Positions 2,528 to 5,846 of a stretch of DNA of 8,645 bases are shown here, piece by piece. The notes beneath the pieces were generated by a model, which worked only from the letters and a program-made list of their open reading frames with translations, was not told the origin of the DNA and searched no databases. Position numbers and translations under genes: made by a program. Every line of letters begins with the position of its first letter. The stretch's first letter is position 1. This DNA is from Candidatus Zixiibacteriota bacterium. Lineage in GTDB: Bacteria > SM23-81. The stretch is taken from positions 1 to 8,645 of the forward strand of contig DAOVRJ010000096.1 in the NCBI GenBank assembly GCA_030628225.1. Direction: 5' to 3'.

Positions 2528-2596
2528 ATTGCAGAGAAGTGATAATGTCCTTCGCCTTACTTATTCTCCATAATTCTCTTGAGGGGATCCTGGCGG

Positions 2597-2809
2597 ATGA
2601 AATATCGTATCTTATTAGAGAAAGATGAAAATGGCGTTTTTGTGGCCGAATGTCCAGCATTTCCCGGATGTATTTCGCAGGGAAAAACCCGGCAGGAAGC
2701 ATTAGAAAATATCCGCGATGCTATCAAAGGCTACATAGAAAGTCTGAAGAAACACAACGAATCCGTTCCATCATCTATTGAGGAAGAGATCGTCGAGGTA
2801 AAAGGTTGA
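2597..2809 (+). CDS. hicB: HicB family antitoxin (hicBA pair 1)
   Basis: A 70-residue HicB/UPF0150-type protein starting MKYRILLEKD. It has the family core: a short beta strand, GVFVAECPAFPGC (residues 13-25), SQGKT and then the helix QEALENIRDAIKGYI. HicB proteins bind and neutralise the HicA mRNA interferase and usually repress their own operon. The ATG at 2597 is preferred over an in-frame TTG at 2579 because the family starts at this strand. The ribosome site is weak (GGCGG directly upstream, GAGGGG farther off). The C-terminus overlaps hicA by three bases, implying translational coupling. No separate C-terminal DNA-binding domain is present, so operator binding, if any, is not explained by a recognisable HTH. 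Confidence 0.9.
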   Translation: MKYRILLEKDENGVFVAECPAFPGCISQGKTRQEALENIRDAIKGYIESLKKHNESVPSSIEEEIVEVKG

Positions 2810-3033
2810 CCAAACTGCCGGTGCTCTCAGGGCGACAACTGTGCAAGGCATTAGGTCGAGCAGGATATATGATCGACCACCAGACAGGAAGCCATATCAT
2901 CCTCAGGTATAACGATCCTCCATACTGGAGACTGACAGTGCCTGACCACAAGGAGATTGCCAAGGGGACACTACGAGCGATACTTCGCCAGGCAGGTTTG
3001 TCAGTAGATCAACTGCTTGCGCTGCTTGCGTGA
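2806..3033 (+). CDS. hicA: HicA family mRNA interferase toxin (pair 1)
   Basis: A 75-residue HicA/YcfA-type protein with the double-stranded-RNA-binding-like fold. It carries the catalytic motif GSHIIL (His at about residue 28) and the typical end VPDHKEIAKGTLRAILRQAG followed by a leucine-rich helix. HicA cleaves mRNA and is held inactive by HicB. It starts with TTG, overlapping the HicB stop (TTGA at 2806-2809), with GAGG 7 nt upstream. The weak start codon would keep toxin below antitoxin. The gene looks intact. Confidence 0.9.
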   Translation: MTKLPVLSGRQLCKALGRAGYMIDHQTGSHIILRYNDPPYWRLTVPDHKEIAKGTLRAILRQAGLSVDQLLALLA

Positions 3034-3133
3034 TCGGGAATAGTGGGCTGAATCTATGAATTGTTATATGGGCACCTTTAGCGAAGAGTCTAAAAGTGAA
3101 ATTTGAAGGTATTGCAAGAGAGTTATTGGAAAG

Positions 3134-3310
3134 ATGCGTATCACAATGACGAAATTCTTCACTGCGGTTCTCCATAAGGAAAACGATCTTTGTGTAGCAG
3201 AATGCCCTGAAATTGGGACGGTCAGCCAGGGGCCTACTATTGAGGAGGCCGTTGCCAATTTGAAAGAGGCCACAGAGCTTTATTTGGAAGAGTTTCCTCT
3301 GCCGGTTTAG
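3134..3310 (+). CDS. Orphan HicB-like protein, probably C-terminally shortened
   Basis: A 58-codon frame with the HicB core: FFTAVLHKENDLCVAECPEIGTVSQG and then IEEAVANLKEATELYLEEFPLPV. Homologous orphan HicB proteins, as I recall the family, continue about ten residues after EEFPLP, so this one may be truncated by the terminator repeat that follows. It could start at 3134 (GGA four bases upstream) or at the second Met at 3146, which is the more usual family start. It lies 100 bp downstream of hicA 1 and ahead of a terminator, so it is probably co-transcribed with pair 1. No HicA partner follows. Confidence 0.75.
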   Translation: MRITMTKFFTAVLHKENDLCVAECPEIGTVSQGPTIEEAVANLKEATELYLEEFPLPV

Positions 3311-3338
3311 AAATTCACGACAAGAGGCTTTTTAACTC

Positions 3339-3376
3339 CGGGGACTTAGGGGGCTTCCCTAATGCCCCGTTTTTTT
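3339..3376 (+). terminator. Rho-independent terminator, repeat family copy 2 (diverged)
   Basis: A 13-bp stem with two mismatches (3339-3351 with 3357-3369), 5-nt loop, then seven T. The layout TTAACTCC-GGGG..TTAGGG-loop-CCCTAA..CCCC matches the copies at 2432 and 4841 despite divergence. It ends the hicBA unit 1 / orphan hicB transcript. Confidence 0.85.
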
Positions 3377-3408
3377 ATGCATCGAGGCCGACCTGAAGGA
3401 GTTGAAGT

Positions 3409-3954
3409 ATGGCAGCTAATAATGAACCTATTCCCCCCGAGCGAATCGAGTCGCTCATCTTTATCATCCGGGGGCAGAAGATCATGCTGAGTACGCACCT
3501 GGCAGAGCTTTATGACGTAAAACCTCGCGCTCTCGTTCAGGCCGTCAAACGGAATATCCAACGCTTCCCCGATGATTTCATGTTTCAGTTGACCGCTGAG
3601 GAGTTCGCCAACTTGAAATCACAAATTGTGATTTCAAGTTGGGGTGGCATCCGCCGAGCTACGCCTTACGCCTTCACCGAACAGGGTGTGGCCATGCTCT
3701 CCAGTGTGTTGCACAGCGACCGCGCCATCGGTGTCAACATCGAGATCATGCGCGCCTTCGTTCGGCTGCGTAAGATGCTCGCCTCCAATGCCGATCTCGC
3801 CGGCAAGCTGGCGGAGCTGGAGAAGAAATATGACGCCCAGTTCAAAGTGGTCTTTGACGCCATCCGTGAGCTTATGACCCCGACTTCCCAGTCATCCAGG
3901 CGGCGAATCGGTTTCGAGACGCAGGAAAAGGCACCGAAGATTGAAAGGGGGTAG
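3409..3954 (+). CDS. ORF6N domain-containing protein
   Basis: A 181-residue protein with AAGGAG 7 nt before the ATG. Residues about 10-95 form the ORF6N domain: [44 protein letters not shown] and then LPYAF-type [23 protein letters not shown]. This is followed by a helical stretch ([13 protein letters not shown]) and a coiled-coil-like segment ([16 protein letters not shown], residues about 127-142). ORF6N is a putative DNA-binding domain shared by phage antirepressor-like and bacterial accessory proteins, related in context to KilA-N/Bro. A regulatory role is inferred; its target is unknown. The gene stands alone after a terminator with no clear own promoter in the 30 bp between. Codons 67-78 are encoded by a 35-bp perfect palindrome (see separate entry). 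Confidence 0.88.
3608..3642. repeat. 35-bp perfect palindrome inside the ORF6N gene
   Basis: Left arm CCAACTTGAAATCACAA (3608-3624), a single A at 3625, right arm TTGTGATTTCAAGTTGG (3626-3642). All 17 pairs match. It encodes part of the conserved [13 protein letters not shown] segment, so the palindrome coexists with coding constraint. It could be an internal operator or a strong mRNA hairpin. Confidence 0.95.
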
Positions 3955-3984
3955 GGGACTGTGTCCGGCCCGGTTGCCCCCGAG

Positions 3985-4096
3985 TCTTAAGGAGCAAGGG
4001 TGGTTCCGTTTCCTCCATCAGTTCCATTTTTTCCACGATTCAACCGCCATTGCCATTGCTACTGAGCGAGATTCGAGACTCGAGATTCGAGAATCG
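3985..4096. repeat. Long direct repeat, copy B, with heptamer tandem repeat
   Basis: Matches copy A (2231-2317) at 85 of 87 bases over 3985-4071. At its right end, four successive heptamers occur at 4070-4096: GATTCGA, GACTCGA, GATTCGA and GAATCG(T). Copy A has only two, so the heptamer number differs between copies. The remainder of the gene-free stretch to 4311 holds the hicBA 2 promoter and leader. Confidence 0.9.
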
Positions 4097-4160
4097 TAAA
4101 GGCCAAACCAAACTGACTTTTAACTTTTGCCTTTCCTGCCAACTGCCAGACGATTATTCA

Positions 4161-4189
4161 TTGACTTTTGGCCGGAAATTTGATATGAT
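4161..4189 (+). promoter_or_regulatory. Promoter of hicBA unit 2
   Basis: TTGACT (4161-4166), 17-bp spacer, TATGAT (4184-4189), preceded by ATTATTCA as at 4902-4908. The leader to the ATG at 4312 is about 115 nt, longer than in the other units. Confidence 0.8.
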
Positions 4190-4311
4190 ATGCTCAGATA
4201 GGATGGGTTAAGGGAATGGGAAAGTCATCTGGGCACCGTTCTAGGTTTAATACTTTTAACGTGCCATCGATTACTCTCAGCATGTATCCCTGACAAAAAA
4301 GGGGAGCTATC

Positions 4312-4539
4312 ATGTGGCAGTTCAAAATCGTGGTGGAAAAGCATCCCGATGGATACATCGCCTATCCCTTGAATTTCAAGGGTGTTGTGGTGGGGCAGGG
4401 GGAGACTTATGAGCAGGCGCTATCGGATGTGAAATCCGCCATACGTTTCCACATCGAAACCTTTGGAGAAGAGGTTTTTGAGTCTGATTCTCCTGTTCTC
4501 GAAGCGAGCATCATTGAAGCAGAGGTTGGCAGCGAATGA
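4312..4539 (+). CDS. hicB: HicB family antitoxin (hicBA pair 2)
   Basis: A 75-residue protein starting MWQFKIVVEKHPDGYIAYPL, with the HicB-type strand pair, a G-x-GET-YEQAL turn (residues 28-37) and a following helix DVKSAIRFHIETFG. Start ATG follows AAGGGGAG with 5-nt spacing. It is expected to neutralise the HicA encoded immediately downstream; the ATGA overlap (4536-4539) couples their translation. It belongs to a different subgroup from the HicB at 2597 (only the general pattern is shared), so the two pairs were probably acquired separately rather than duplicated locally. Confidence 0.87.
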   Translation: MWQFKIVVEKHPDGYIAYPLNFKGVVVGQGETYEQALSDVKSAIRFHIETFGEEVFESDSPVLEASIIEAEVGSE

Positions 4540-4775
4540 CAAAATTTCCAGTAGATGCTCCCAGGCAGAAAGTCATCAAGGCGCTGGAGAAGTTAGGCTT
4601 TCGGATTATTCGAGAAGAGGAACATATTGCTATGCTTCGCGAGAATCCCGATGGGACCACGACTCCCCTGACCATGCCCAATCATCTGAGAATAAAGGGA
4701 TCAACCTTGCGGGTCATCTGTACGCAATCAGGGATCTCACGGGATGATTTCTTGAAGGCATATAGGAAGATATAG
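4536..4775 (+). CDS. hicA: HicA family mRNA interferase toxin (pair 2)
   Basis: A 79-residue HicA protein: LEKLGFRIIREEEHIAML (catalytic-type His at about residue 34), then ENPDGTTTPLTMPNH and the typical end IKGSTLRVICTQSGISRDDFL. The common GSH/GNH triplet is EEH here, but the histidine is kept. It overlaps hicB 2 by four bases (ATGA), with AGAGG about 10 nt upstream. It is followed by 65 bp and the terminator at 4841. It appears intact. Confidence 0.87.
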   Translation: MTKFPVDAPRQKVIKALEKLGFRIIREEEHIAMLRENPDGTTTPLTMPNHLRIKGSTLRVICTQSGISRDDFLKAYRKI

Positions 4776-4840
4776 TGTTGTAGGCTAGGTTGAAGGGCTC
4801 AACCCGACCTGCGAGTTACTCGCGGTAGGTTTATTGACTC

Positions 4841-4878
4841 CAGGGGGTTAGGGGGTAAAACCCTAACCCCCTGTTTTT
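4841..4878 (+). terminator. Rho-independent terminator, repeat family copy 3
   Basis: Perfect 13-bp stem CAGGGGGTTAGGG/CCCTAACCCCCTG (4841-4853 with 4861-4873), 7-nt loop, then TTTTT. The 33 bp at 4823-4855 are identical to 2414-2446; only the loop differs. It ends hicBA unit 2. Confidence 0.88.
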
Positions 4879-4908
4879 CATCTATGGGGCACGGCAATAT
4901 ATTATTCA

Positions 4909-4937
4909 TTGACTTTTCAGCATAATTTGCCTATGAT
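4909..4937 (+). promoter_or_regulatory. Promoter of the third hicB unit
   Basis: TTGACT (4909-4914), 17-bp spacer, TATGAT (4932-4937), with ATTATTCA immediately upstream as in unit 2. A CATCTG/CAGATG dyad (4961-4966 with 4975-4980) in the leader could be an operator. Leader length to the ATG is about 70 nt. Confidence 0.8.
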
Positions 4938-5012
4938 ATTTCTGCAATATTTGATATGCTCATCTGAGATCGAGCAGATGCTGAAAAGATCCATGTGTAA
5001 GGAGCGGAGAAG

Positions 5013-5186
5013 ATGCGCAAAATAACCGCCTACGTGGAGAAAGATCCAGAAACCGGGCTGTATGTGGCTATCGTGCCCAGTATACCAGGGGCTCATACTC
5101 AGGCAGCTTCTCTTGACGAATTGCAGAAAAACATCAAGGAAGTTGTCGAGCTGTGCCTGGAGGAATGCGGCCCCGTGAGTAATTGA
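5013..5186 (+). CDS. Orphan HicB-like protein, probably C-terminally truncated
   Basis: A 57-codon frame, MRKITAYVEKDPETGLYVAI then VPSIPGAHTQAASLDELQKN and a helix IKEVVELCLEE. AAGGAG lies 8 nt before the ATG. The strand-helix pattern and PGxxTQA turn are typical of a HicB subgroup whose members, as I recall them, run on about 12-15 residues (an LPEFVG-like end) before hicA. Here the frame ends CGPVSN, just where an AATCAAT-rich operator region of the next gene begins, and no hicA follows. I infer that a rearrangement replaced the gene end and hicA with the nucleotidyltransferase cassette. Confidence 0.75.
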   Translation: MRKITAYVEKDPETGLYVAIVPSIPGAHTQAASLDELQKNIKEVVELCLEECGPVSN

Positions 5187-5225: not shown

Positions 5226-5846
5226 ATGGCCACCTTATCGGACATGATATCATCGAAAGCGCGGGCGGAGATATTTCGCCTGCTTTTCGGGGTTTCTGAT
5301 AAAGAGCTTCACGTACGGGAAATTGAGCGCCAATCCGGACTGGCCTTCCGTACGGTGCATCAGGAATTGAAAAATCTCGCGCAGATGGATCTCGTCACAG
5401 CTCGTCGAGAGAGCAATCGCCTTTACTACCGGGCCAACGATGAACATCCCCTTTTCAATGACATCCGCAACATCGTCCTGAAAACTTCCGGTCTGGTCGA
5501 GGTTCTGAGAGAGGCTCTCGATCATAAGCAGGTCAAGGTCGCCTTCGTGTTTGGATCCATCGCCAGAAAAGATGAGGGTGCCCGCAGCGATGTCGATCTG
5601 ATGGTCATCGGCGATGTCAGTCTGCGGAAAGTCGTTGGCTGGCTGAGCGATGTTGCTGAGAGGGTGGGTCGCGAAATCAATCCTCATGCCTTCAGCCTGA
5701 ATGAATTCCAAAAACGAAAGGAGTCTGGCAATCATTTTTTAACAACCGTCTTGAGATCACCGAAGCTCTTCATCAGGGGAGATGATCATGCGCTTGCAAC
5801 ACTGGGTCGACAACAAGCTGCTTCGGACGTACACGACGAATTCTGA
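5226..5846 (+). CDS. HTH-domain nucleotidyltransferase (MntA-like antitoxin type)
   Basis: A 206-residue protein. Residues about 10-70 form a winged HTH (ARAEIFRLLFG, VREIERQSGLAFRTVHQELK, LYYRAN wing). Residues about 100-185 form a minimal nucleotidyltransferase of the DNA polymerase beta fold, with FGSIARKDEGARSDVDL giving the GS-x10-DxD motif (G110, S111, D122, D124). In MNT-HEPN pairs this type of protein neutralises a HEPN ribonuclease, in characterised cases by AMPylating it; the fused HTH likely adds autorepression. It follows the truncated hicB by 39 bp with half-sites in between. The partner gene begins in a 59-bp overlap at 5788 but is cut off. The TGA stop (5844-5846) coincides with the first bases of a repeat, so the true C-terminus may differ. 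Confidence 0.85.
   Translation: MATLSDMISSKARAEIFRLLFGVSDKELHVREIERQSGLAFRTVHQELKNLAQMDLVTARRESNRLYYRANDEHPLFNDIRNIVLKTSGLVEVLREALDHKQVKVAFVFGSIARKDEGARSDVDLMVIGDVSLRKVVGWLSDVAERVGREINPHAFSLNEFQKRKESGNHFLTTVLRSPKLFIRGDDHALATLGRQQAASDVHDEF
5788..5846 (+). pseudogene. N-terminal remnant of a HEPN-domain toxin
   Basis: ATG at 5788 with AGGGGAG six bases upstream opens a frame MRLQHWVDNKLLR...TNS. It resembles the N-terminus of HEPN-type proteins encoded directly after HTH-nucleotidyltransferases (M..L.KWLDNGWLR pattern, from memory of the family). After about 19 codons the frame enters the hairpin repeat at 5844 and then other repeats, ending at 6039 without HEPN features. The R-x4-6-H ribonuclease motif expected later in the protein is absent. 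I infer a toxin gene decapitated by repeat insertion or deletion. Confidence 0.6.

Follow-up and report, generated by a model that had tools for sequence, protein, structure and literature searches.

A perfect palindrome within an ORF6N gene

Why should a protein-coding gene carry a long perfect palindrome, and does the palindrome serve the protein, the DNA or the mRNA? This question was raised by an ORF6N gene in the 8,645-nt stretch of a Candidatus Zixiibacteriota contig analysed here (hereafter, the window). The gene lies at 3409-3954 on the forward strand and encodes 181 aa that matched Pfam PF10543 at 111.5 bits (curated cut-off, 27.8 bits), placing it in the ORF6N family. It also matched the PHROG anti-repressor annotation, which is shared by ORF6N relatives, and the PADLOC candidate PDC-S05. 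The AlphaFold2 model predicted a small HTH-like domain and a long helix, and its similarity to SKI/Dachshund and MerR-type domains was weak and non-significant.

The palindrome spans 3608-3642 (CCAACTTGAAATCACAA-A-TTGTGATTTCAAGTTGG) and is assigned to neither strand. Its arms (3608-3624 and 3626-3642) match in 17 of 17 pairs around a single central A at 3625, and no longer perfect palindrome was found in the window. A 29-nt core at 3611-3639, likewise assigned to neither strand, fits the family palindrome model (R1) at 41.8 and 41.6 bits on the two strands. The palindrome lies in frame, and the residues it encodes fall within codons 63-86 (3595-3666, forward strand), modelled with codons 63-72 as the end of a helix and codons 73-86 as a linker of low confidence, with a mean pLDDT of 57 over residues 71-80. 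The first-pass annotation had reported a 35-bp palindrome with 17 matched arm pairs in the ORF6N coding frame, encoding 11 residues and not easily given by chance, and recomputation on the window reproduced each of these points. From base composition, about 5e-7 arms of 17 bp with that spacing are expected per window, and 4e-7 in the gene alone with 12 loop sizes allowed. None of 20,000 synonymous recodings of the window peptide attained the observed 15 of 15 pairs (mean 6.8, maximum 14). A chance origin is ruled out by the composition expectation and the recodings together, and an intrinsic terminator by the lack of a T run 3' of 3642. The palindrome occurs as a single copy in its own genome at up to 3 mismatches, and a search with the family palindrome model found no promoter-side copy for the window ORF6N gene.

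The gene stands in a string of small accessory genes (2579-5186) comprising two HicA toxin genes with HicB-like partners, the ORF6N gene and more HicB-like ORFs (58 and 57 aa), with a Polbeta nucleotidyltransferase downstream at 5226-5846. Direct repeats of 98 bp, 96% identical, bracket the HicAB/ORF6N segment at 2231-2328 and 3985-4082. A further pair of repeats, 59 bp long, is found at 365-423 and 2115-2173. Three related 49-nt inverted repeats (2418-2466, 3325-3373 and 4827-4875; GGGGGTTAGGGGG...CCCTAACCCCC, then T-rich) stand before or after accessory genes and are terminator-like. Candidate defence relatives were assigned by PADLOC to the genes at 549-1937, 3409-3954 and 5226-5846 (PDC-S01, PDC-S05 and PDC-M05A, respectively).

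The palindrome is fixed in position across ORF6N genes

Homologs were drawn from GTDB genomes (80 named loci), from single genomes representing many phyla, from one genus sampled in depth (up to 18 ORF6N copies per genome), and from 7 viral contigs and 10 plasmid records. A strict palindrome fell inside one 50-nt bin in 203 of the 221 profile-mapped ORF6N genes, from many phyla, vs 0 of 145 matched control stretches and 3 chance sites across the entire shuffled sequence. Upstream of the FTEQG motif, the top palindrome score had a median near 12 in 203 distinct genes, vs a median near 4 and a maximum of 7.2 in the adjoining stretch of those genes. The in-gene palindrome lies ~200 nt downstream of the ORF6N start, and all 10 plasmid ORF6N genes carried it. 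Two small plasmids of Segatella copri, 4.1 and 3.0 kb in size (L337 and L338), encode rep and ORF6N only, each ORF6N with an in-gene palindrome. A viral origin is ruled out, with only 7 loci among 2.9 million viral contigs plus 5 phage records.

A covariance model detected palindromes in 27 of 98 genomes, all of them among the 31 genomes with ORF6N, and found the ORF6N-type palindrome in 0 of the 67 genomes without it. In a second sample, every genome of the phylum had ORF6N, and the sample thus provided no ORF6N-less comparison. When sought as empty sites, genes without a palindrome were scarce: it was nearly always present, in 1-4 tandem copies. The strict census counted 7 distinct linkers with two or more palindromes, and some homologs had 2-4 copies per linker; in one gene, four were recognised from the peptide (ILKSQIVTSS, LVKSQFATSR, ILMSQNVTSS and LVKSQIVTSR). 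Tandem palindromes were all in frame, mostly 42 nt apart and different in sequence. The same core, GGTCGCAA-N-TTGCGACC, was read in two frames, giving ELVANCDRF when one base out of frame and LRSQIATSK otherwise, and the frame-shifted palindromes formed no single supported clade on a rough tree.

The two arms change together

In the 173 distinct sites compared, 95% of pairs at positions 2-12, counted from the centre, were Watson-Crick. The observed pairing was 94.5%, vs 40% when homolog peptides were recoded using each gene's own codon usage. Double changes were found in every one of 13 pairs, with 178 both-side-changed cells vs 48 in shuffles. With the palindrome left out of tree building, parsimony counted 184 Watson-Crick-to-Watson-Crick double changes and 154 one-sided changes, vs 15-51 double changes of any kind and 281-551 one-sided changes in slid controls; horizontal movement means that cells and branches are not fully independent, though the effect is very large. 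In moderately close genes, at roughly 80% flank identity, there were ~7 double changes per single change.

The pairing extends to individual codon choices. The third base of the Ser codon matched the second base of codon 7 in 122 of 122 genes, including two with TCC/G; Ser TCA goes with Val GTG, and Ser TCG with Ala GCG. The third base of the Leu codon matched the second base of codon 9 in 129 of 129 genes, Leu TTG going with Ser TCA and TTA with Leu TTA, and the choice of Lys or Arg tracked T- or C-ending Thr or Ile codons opposite, with few exceptions. The arms change together even where the protein is altered, and a change in one arm would be followed by a change in the other, at the price of an amino acid where needed, because both arms must match. 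The first-pass annotation had proposed that coding and structural constraints act together, and had named, as the result that would speak against it, close homologs in which the peptide is unchanged but the palindrome is freely broken. The comparison of synonymous sites gave the opposite: synonymous choices follow the opposite arm almost without exception, and the arms covary family-wide.

Which molecule is constrained was addressed by the mismatches and the apex. Sense G.T and sense A.C mismatches were equally common (25 each in the 173 sites), and an RNA helix should favour G.U, so that the equal counts speak against RNA. Apex heptamers and their own reverse complements had similar counts (54/46, 17/12, 7/7, 6/4 and 4/4). 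Together, the mismatch counts and the strand-symmetric apices place the constraint on the DNA rather than on a hairpin in the mRNA. The central base was A in 88 sites, T in 84, G in 1 and C in none, and G or C is nearly absent although Val or Leu codons should be no less suitable than those for Ile or Phe. The A at position 2 and the T at position 6 of the core were kept in ~97%, and outer arm positions 9-13 paired in >87% of genes with nearly any sequence. This outer pairing fits a requirement for a hairpin, or copying between arms, better than plain sequence recognition; combined with the concerted arm changes, it suggests either recognition of a hairpin or copying between the arms by template switching.

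Comparable palindromes in RhuM, Bro-N and DUF1016/YhcG genes

One extra-genic match of the ORF6N-type palindrome fell within a Bro-N gene. In-frame palindromes were found in RhuM genes, where their spacing from the YNLDxII motif is fixed (28 of 31, vs 1 of 30 controls), with 94% Watson-Crick pairing vs 69% in recodings and a motif of their own (AACT...AGTT), and in Bro-N genes (10 of 12, vs 0 of 12 controls), with 92% pairing vs 55% in recodings. Of the 14 DUF1016/YhcG genes examined, 9 had a palindrome with a score of 9 or more in the same place or close by. These three sets are small, partly regex-based and scored on the best palindrome per stretch, and the fractions are therefore approximate. 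The motifs are family-specific rather than copies of one element. Among 692 other genes, ~5% had a comparable palindrome, a figure that also counts N-run artefacts and overlooked members of these families.

In Escherichia coli K-12, the yhcG palindrome is AAAGATTTGGCAGACGCTGTCTGCCAAATCTTT; the in-frame palindrome of E. coli yhcG is 33 bp long (L415:4205-4237). A 61-bp yhcG stretch was held by 3518 of 5426 E. coli genomes (2670 across >80% of its length). In the river isolate E. coli 21F61, two more palindromes with that GGCAGAC-type core, AATTCGCCAGACAGTGTCTGGCGAATT and GAATTCCGCAGACACCGTCTGCAGAATTC, lie a short way upstream of the yhcG palindrome. In E. coli VG12A2, yhcG is cut at the palindrome edge with a transposase gene just past it (L422 and L423 among the yhcG loci). 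By annotation, ORF6N, RhuM and DUF1016 genes also occur in type I restriction-modification operons, by hsdM and/or hsdS, or in a BREX locus (L339, L404, L407, L408, L409, L410, L419 and L421).

Copies outside the gene frame

Sites of the palindrome class occurred at 0.72/kb within 260 nt upstream of the ORF6N domain and at 0.04/kb elsewhere within 1.5 kb, an 18-fold difference, although only 27 of the 221 ORF6N genes had a promoter-side copy. Across the family, then, a dyad-symmetric site is enriched at the gene's own promoter, as looked for in an operator. In L340, for instance, CATCGAGATGCCAATTTGGCATCTCGATG lies 15 nt ahead of the start codon and TATCGAGATGCCAATCTGTCATCTCGATG inside the gene. 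Pairing was 94.5% in the in-gene palindromes and 88.6% in the upstream copies. With the class filter, upstream copies resembled the gene's own palindrome beyond shuffled pairings (2 of 2000 shuffles as high); a first, looser version that included noise sites was not significant (336 of 2000), and the likeness seen in the repeated test is suggestive, while part of the match could come from shared lineage composition.

Other extra-genic copies adjoin DUF1016, DUF3800, PIN, MNT/HEPN and YoeB-type genes, and one intergenic copy is identical across 30 nt to a copy within an ORF6N gene. Fragments of ORF6N genes were rejected as their source: no credible remnant flanked ~18 sites at 13 loci, the single weak score (13.6 bits at L240:3823) lying near a real ORF6N gene. 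Convergent genes flank several of the copies, an arrangement that rules out general promoter operators for neighbour genes and is at odds with an operator. At L237:561-1010 and L239:2361-2820, upstream of near-identical DUF1016 genes, the flank is kept and both palindrome arms differ in concert.

In one genus (L232 and L327-L336), a hot spot downstream of the rnf operon holds 0.8-8 kb of variable genes between conserved flanks, with an ORF6N-type palindrome ahead of the downstream gene in several species. Integron-like cassette sites were rejected at this hot spot, where inserts are variable and most boundaries have no palindrome.

A DNA site that may be read by the encoded protein

The fixed site, the conserved core, the promoter-side copies and the strict co-occurrence with ORF6N together argue for a DNA site whose reader is the encoded protein. 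In the reading we tentatively prefer, which has a little under an even chance of being right, the palindrome is an intragenic site recognised by the encoded DNA-binding protein and acts as an autoregulatory operator. The recognition site would be embedded in the ORF6N coding sequence, ~200 nt past the gene start and with extra copies in the promoter region of some relatives. It would most likely be read by the encoded protein or a complex that holds it, bound as a dimer or to an extruded hairpin, and the bound protein would limit or gate transcription of the gene that encodes it. By template switching during replication, one arm could plausibly be copied to the other. From the sequences we infer ORF6N as the reader and autoregulation as the outcome. 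The operator for ORF6N itself, proposed in the first-pass annotation, is strengthened by the upstream copies near ORF6N genes. Set against it are the small share of genes with a promoter-side copy, the lack of one for the window gene, the copies between convergent genes, the sequence-independent pairing of the outer positions, and the more perfect pairing of in-gene than of upstream copies.

A selfish or mobile protein-coding palindrome that spreads by copying to tolerant linkers and intergenic sites with no service to the host gene, as has been suggested for Rickettsia palindromic elements, would account for the in-frame placement within a disordered linker (in the AlphaFold2 model), the 2-4 tandem copies per gene, and the stand-alone intergenic copies, which lack ORF6N remnants, lie by toxin-antitoxin, DUF1016 and DUF3800 genes and include the one sharing 30 identical nt with an in-gene copy. 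Such an element should insert at assorted sites, whereas the ORF6N position is fixed across phyla and almost never empty; few copies lie outside ORF6N, the RhuM, Bro-N and DUF1016 motifs differ by family, and REP-type Y1 transposases are absent from four of the palindrome-richest genomes. We regard this account as fairly unlikely, although the in-frame palindromic element raised in the first-pass annotation keeps some probability. Somewhat harder to credit is that an ancestral chance palindrome without function has been kept perfect by template switching alone. This mutational process is documented as able to make and keep perfect stems (PMC8794818); the concerted arm changes in moderately close genes agree with it, and the strand-symmetric apices look like loop inversion. 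It leaves unexplained the conserved core bases, the upstream clustering of separate copies at ORF6N genes, their restriction to ORF6N genomes, and a trait shared by several antirepressor-like families vs ~5% of other genes.

A different factor might instead use the palindrome, as the target of a recombinase or transposase, as a site for a host nucleoid or replication factor, or as a centromere-like site, and this class of mobile accessory genes would exploit it. The trait's presence in unrelated ORF6N, RhuM, Bro-N and DUF1016 genes of restriction-modification, BREX and toxin-antitoxin islands, the yhcG of VG12A2 broken beside a transposase gene, and the two-gene Segatella plasmids could be read this way, but a motif peculiar to each family and the total absence of the ORF6N-type palindrome from ORF6N-less genomes make it improbable in our judgement. 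Least credible is a structured mRNA hairpin governing translation or decay of the ORF6N message, another possibility raised in the first-pass annotation. The window palindrome folds strongly (z = -6.1) and the covariation is strong, yet G.U is no commoner than A.C, the apices are symmetric, copies lie outside transcripts and between convergent genes, and an Rfam search of the window matched no family; as the main explanation, the hairpin is ruled out by the wobble counts and apex symmetry, and we give it very little weight overall.

Relation to known palindromic elements

Palindromic sites for a DNA-binding protein within its own coding sequence are known from parS within spo0J/parB and from intragenic operators. 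ORF6N is not a ParB, its binding is putative, and its site varies in sequence among homologs while the symmetry is kept.

The nearest precedents are of two kinds, PARCELs being the second. The first, Rickettsia palindromic elements and other protein-coding palindromes (Ogata and colleagues 2000/2002; Wolbachia; M. jannaschii; cited in PMC2996958), are likewise palindromic DNA in frame in protein genes, in unstructured stretches and also extra-genic. The ORF6N palindrome shares the near-perfect, in-frame form and is not one element at assorted positions of unrelated genes: it sits at one fixed position in one family across phyla and is nearly always present, its arms covary, it is short (about 29-35 nt), it has promoter-side copies, and the motifs of other families differ. 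PARCELs, the palindromic amphipathic repeat coding elements of DUF285, share a family-wide dyad symmetry in the coding DNA of horizontally spread genes, and tandem copies; as described in the relevant part of PMC2996958, they are 25-residue surface-protein repeats with imperfect palindromes and variable phase, and by that description the covariation and synonymous-site evidence set the ORF6N palindrome apart. A Pfam profile search of the gene matched ORF6N alone and found no 25-residue DUF285 repeats.

REP elements with RAYT/Y1 transposases (PMC3733652) are also short palindromes (20-40 bp) but are dispersed between genes, whereas the ORF6N palindrome is low in copy number and mostly within one gene family; a Y1_Tnp search found none in four of the palindrome-richest genomes (G096, G119, G120 and G121), and a REP/RAYT element was rejected on this basis. 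Template-switch maintained hairpins, proposed for RNA genes and yeast coding regions (PMC8794818, PMC8604942), resemble the present case in arms corrected to match, concerted changes and inverted loops; here, in contrast, the setting is a single class of bacterial genes for DNA-binding proteins, and core bases are conserved. Open-licence full text yielded no description of palindromes in ORF6N genes, almost nothing on ORF6N, and no explanation of the role of ORF6N, RhuM, Bro-N or DUF1016/YhcG. The ORF6N palindrome is set apart from the nearest precedents by the fixed position, the near-universal presence, the deep covariation and the promoter-side copies.

These four families are widespread in bacterial genomes and mobile islands, and some members are listed as candidate defence genes. 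It is conceivable, though we think it unlikely, that in all four, which are antirepressor-like and often sit in defence islands, the DNA coding for a loop past the HTH-like part is the site that the protein reads. If so, a recognition site and part of its reader would be one stretch of DNA, evolving as a self-referential unit. A strictly kept palindrome in each coding sequence is a concrete lead to a DNA target, one that can be tested directly and, for yhcG, in E. coli K-12. It carries a caution, too: in these families, a protein motif such as L-R-S-Q-x-x-T-S owes its form to DNA symmetry as well as to protein function.
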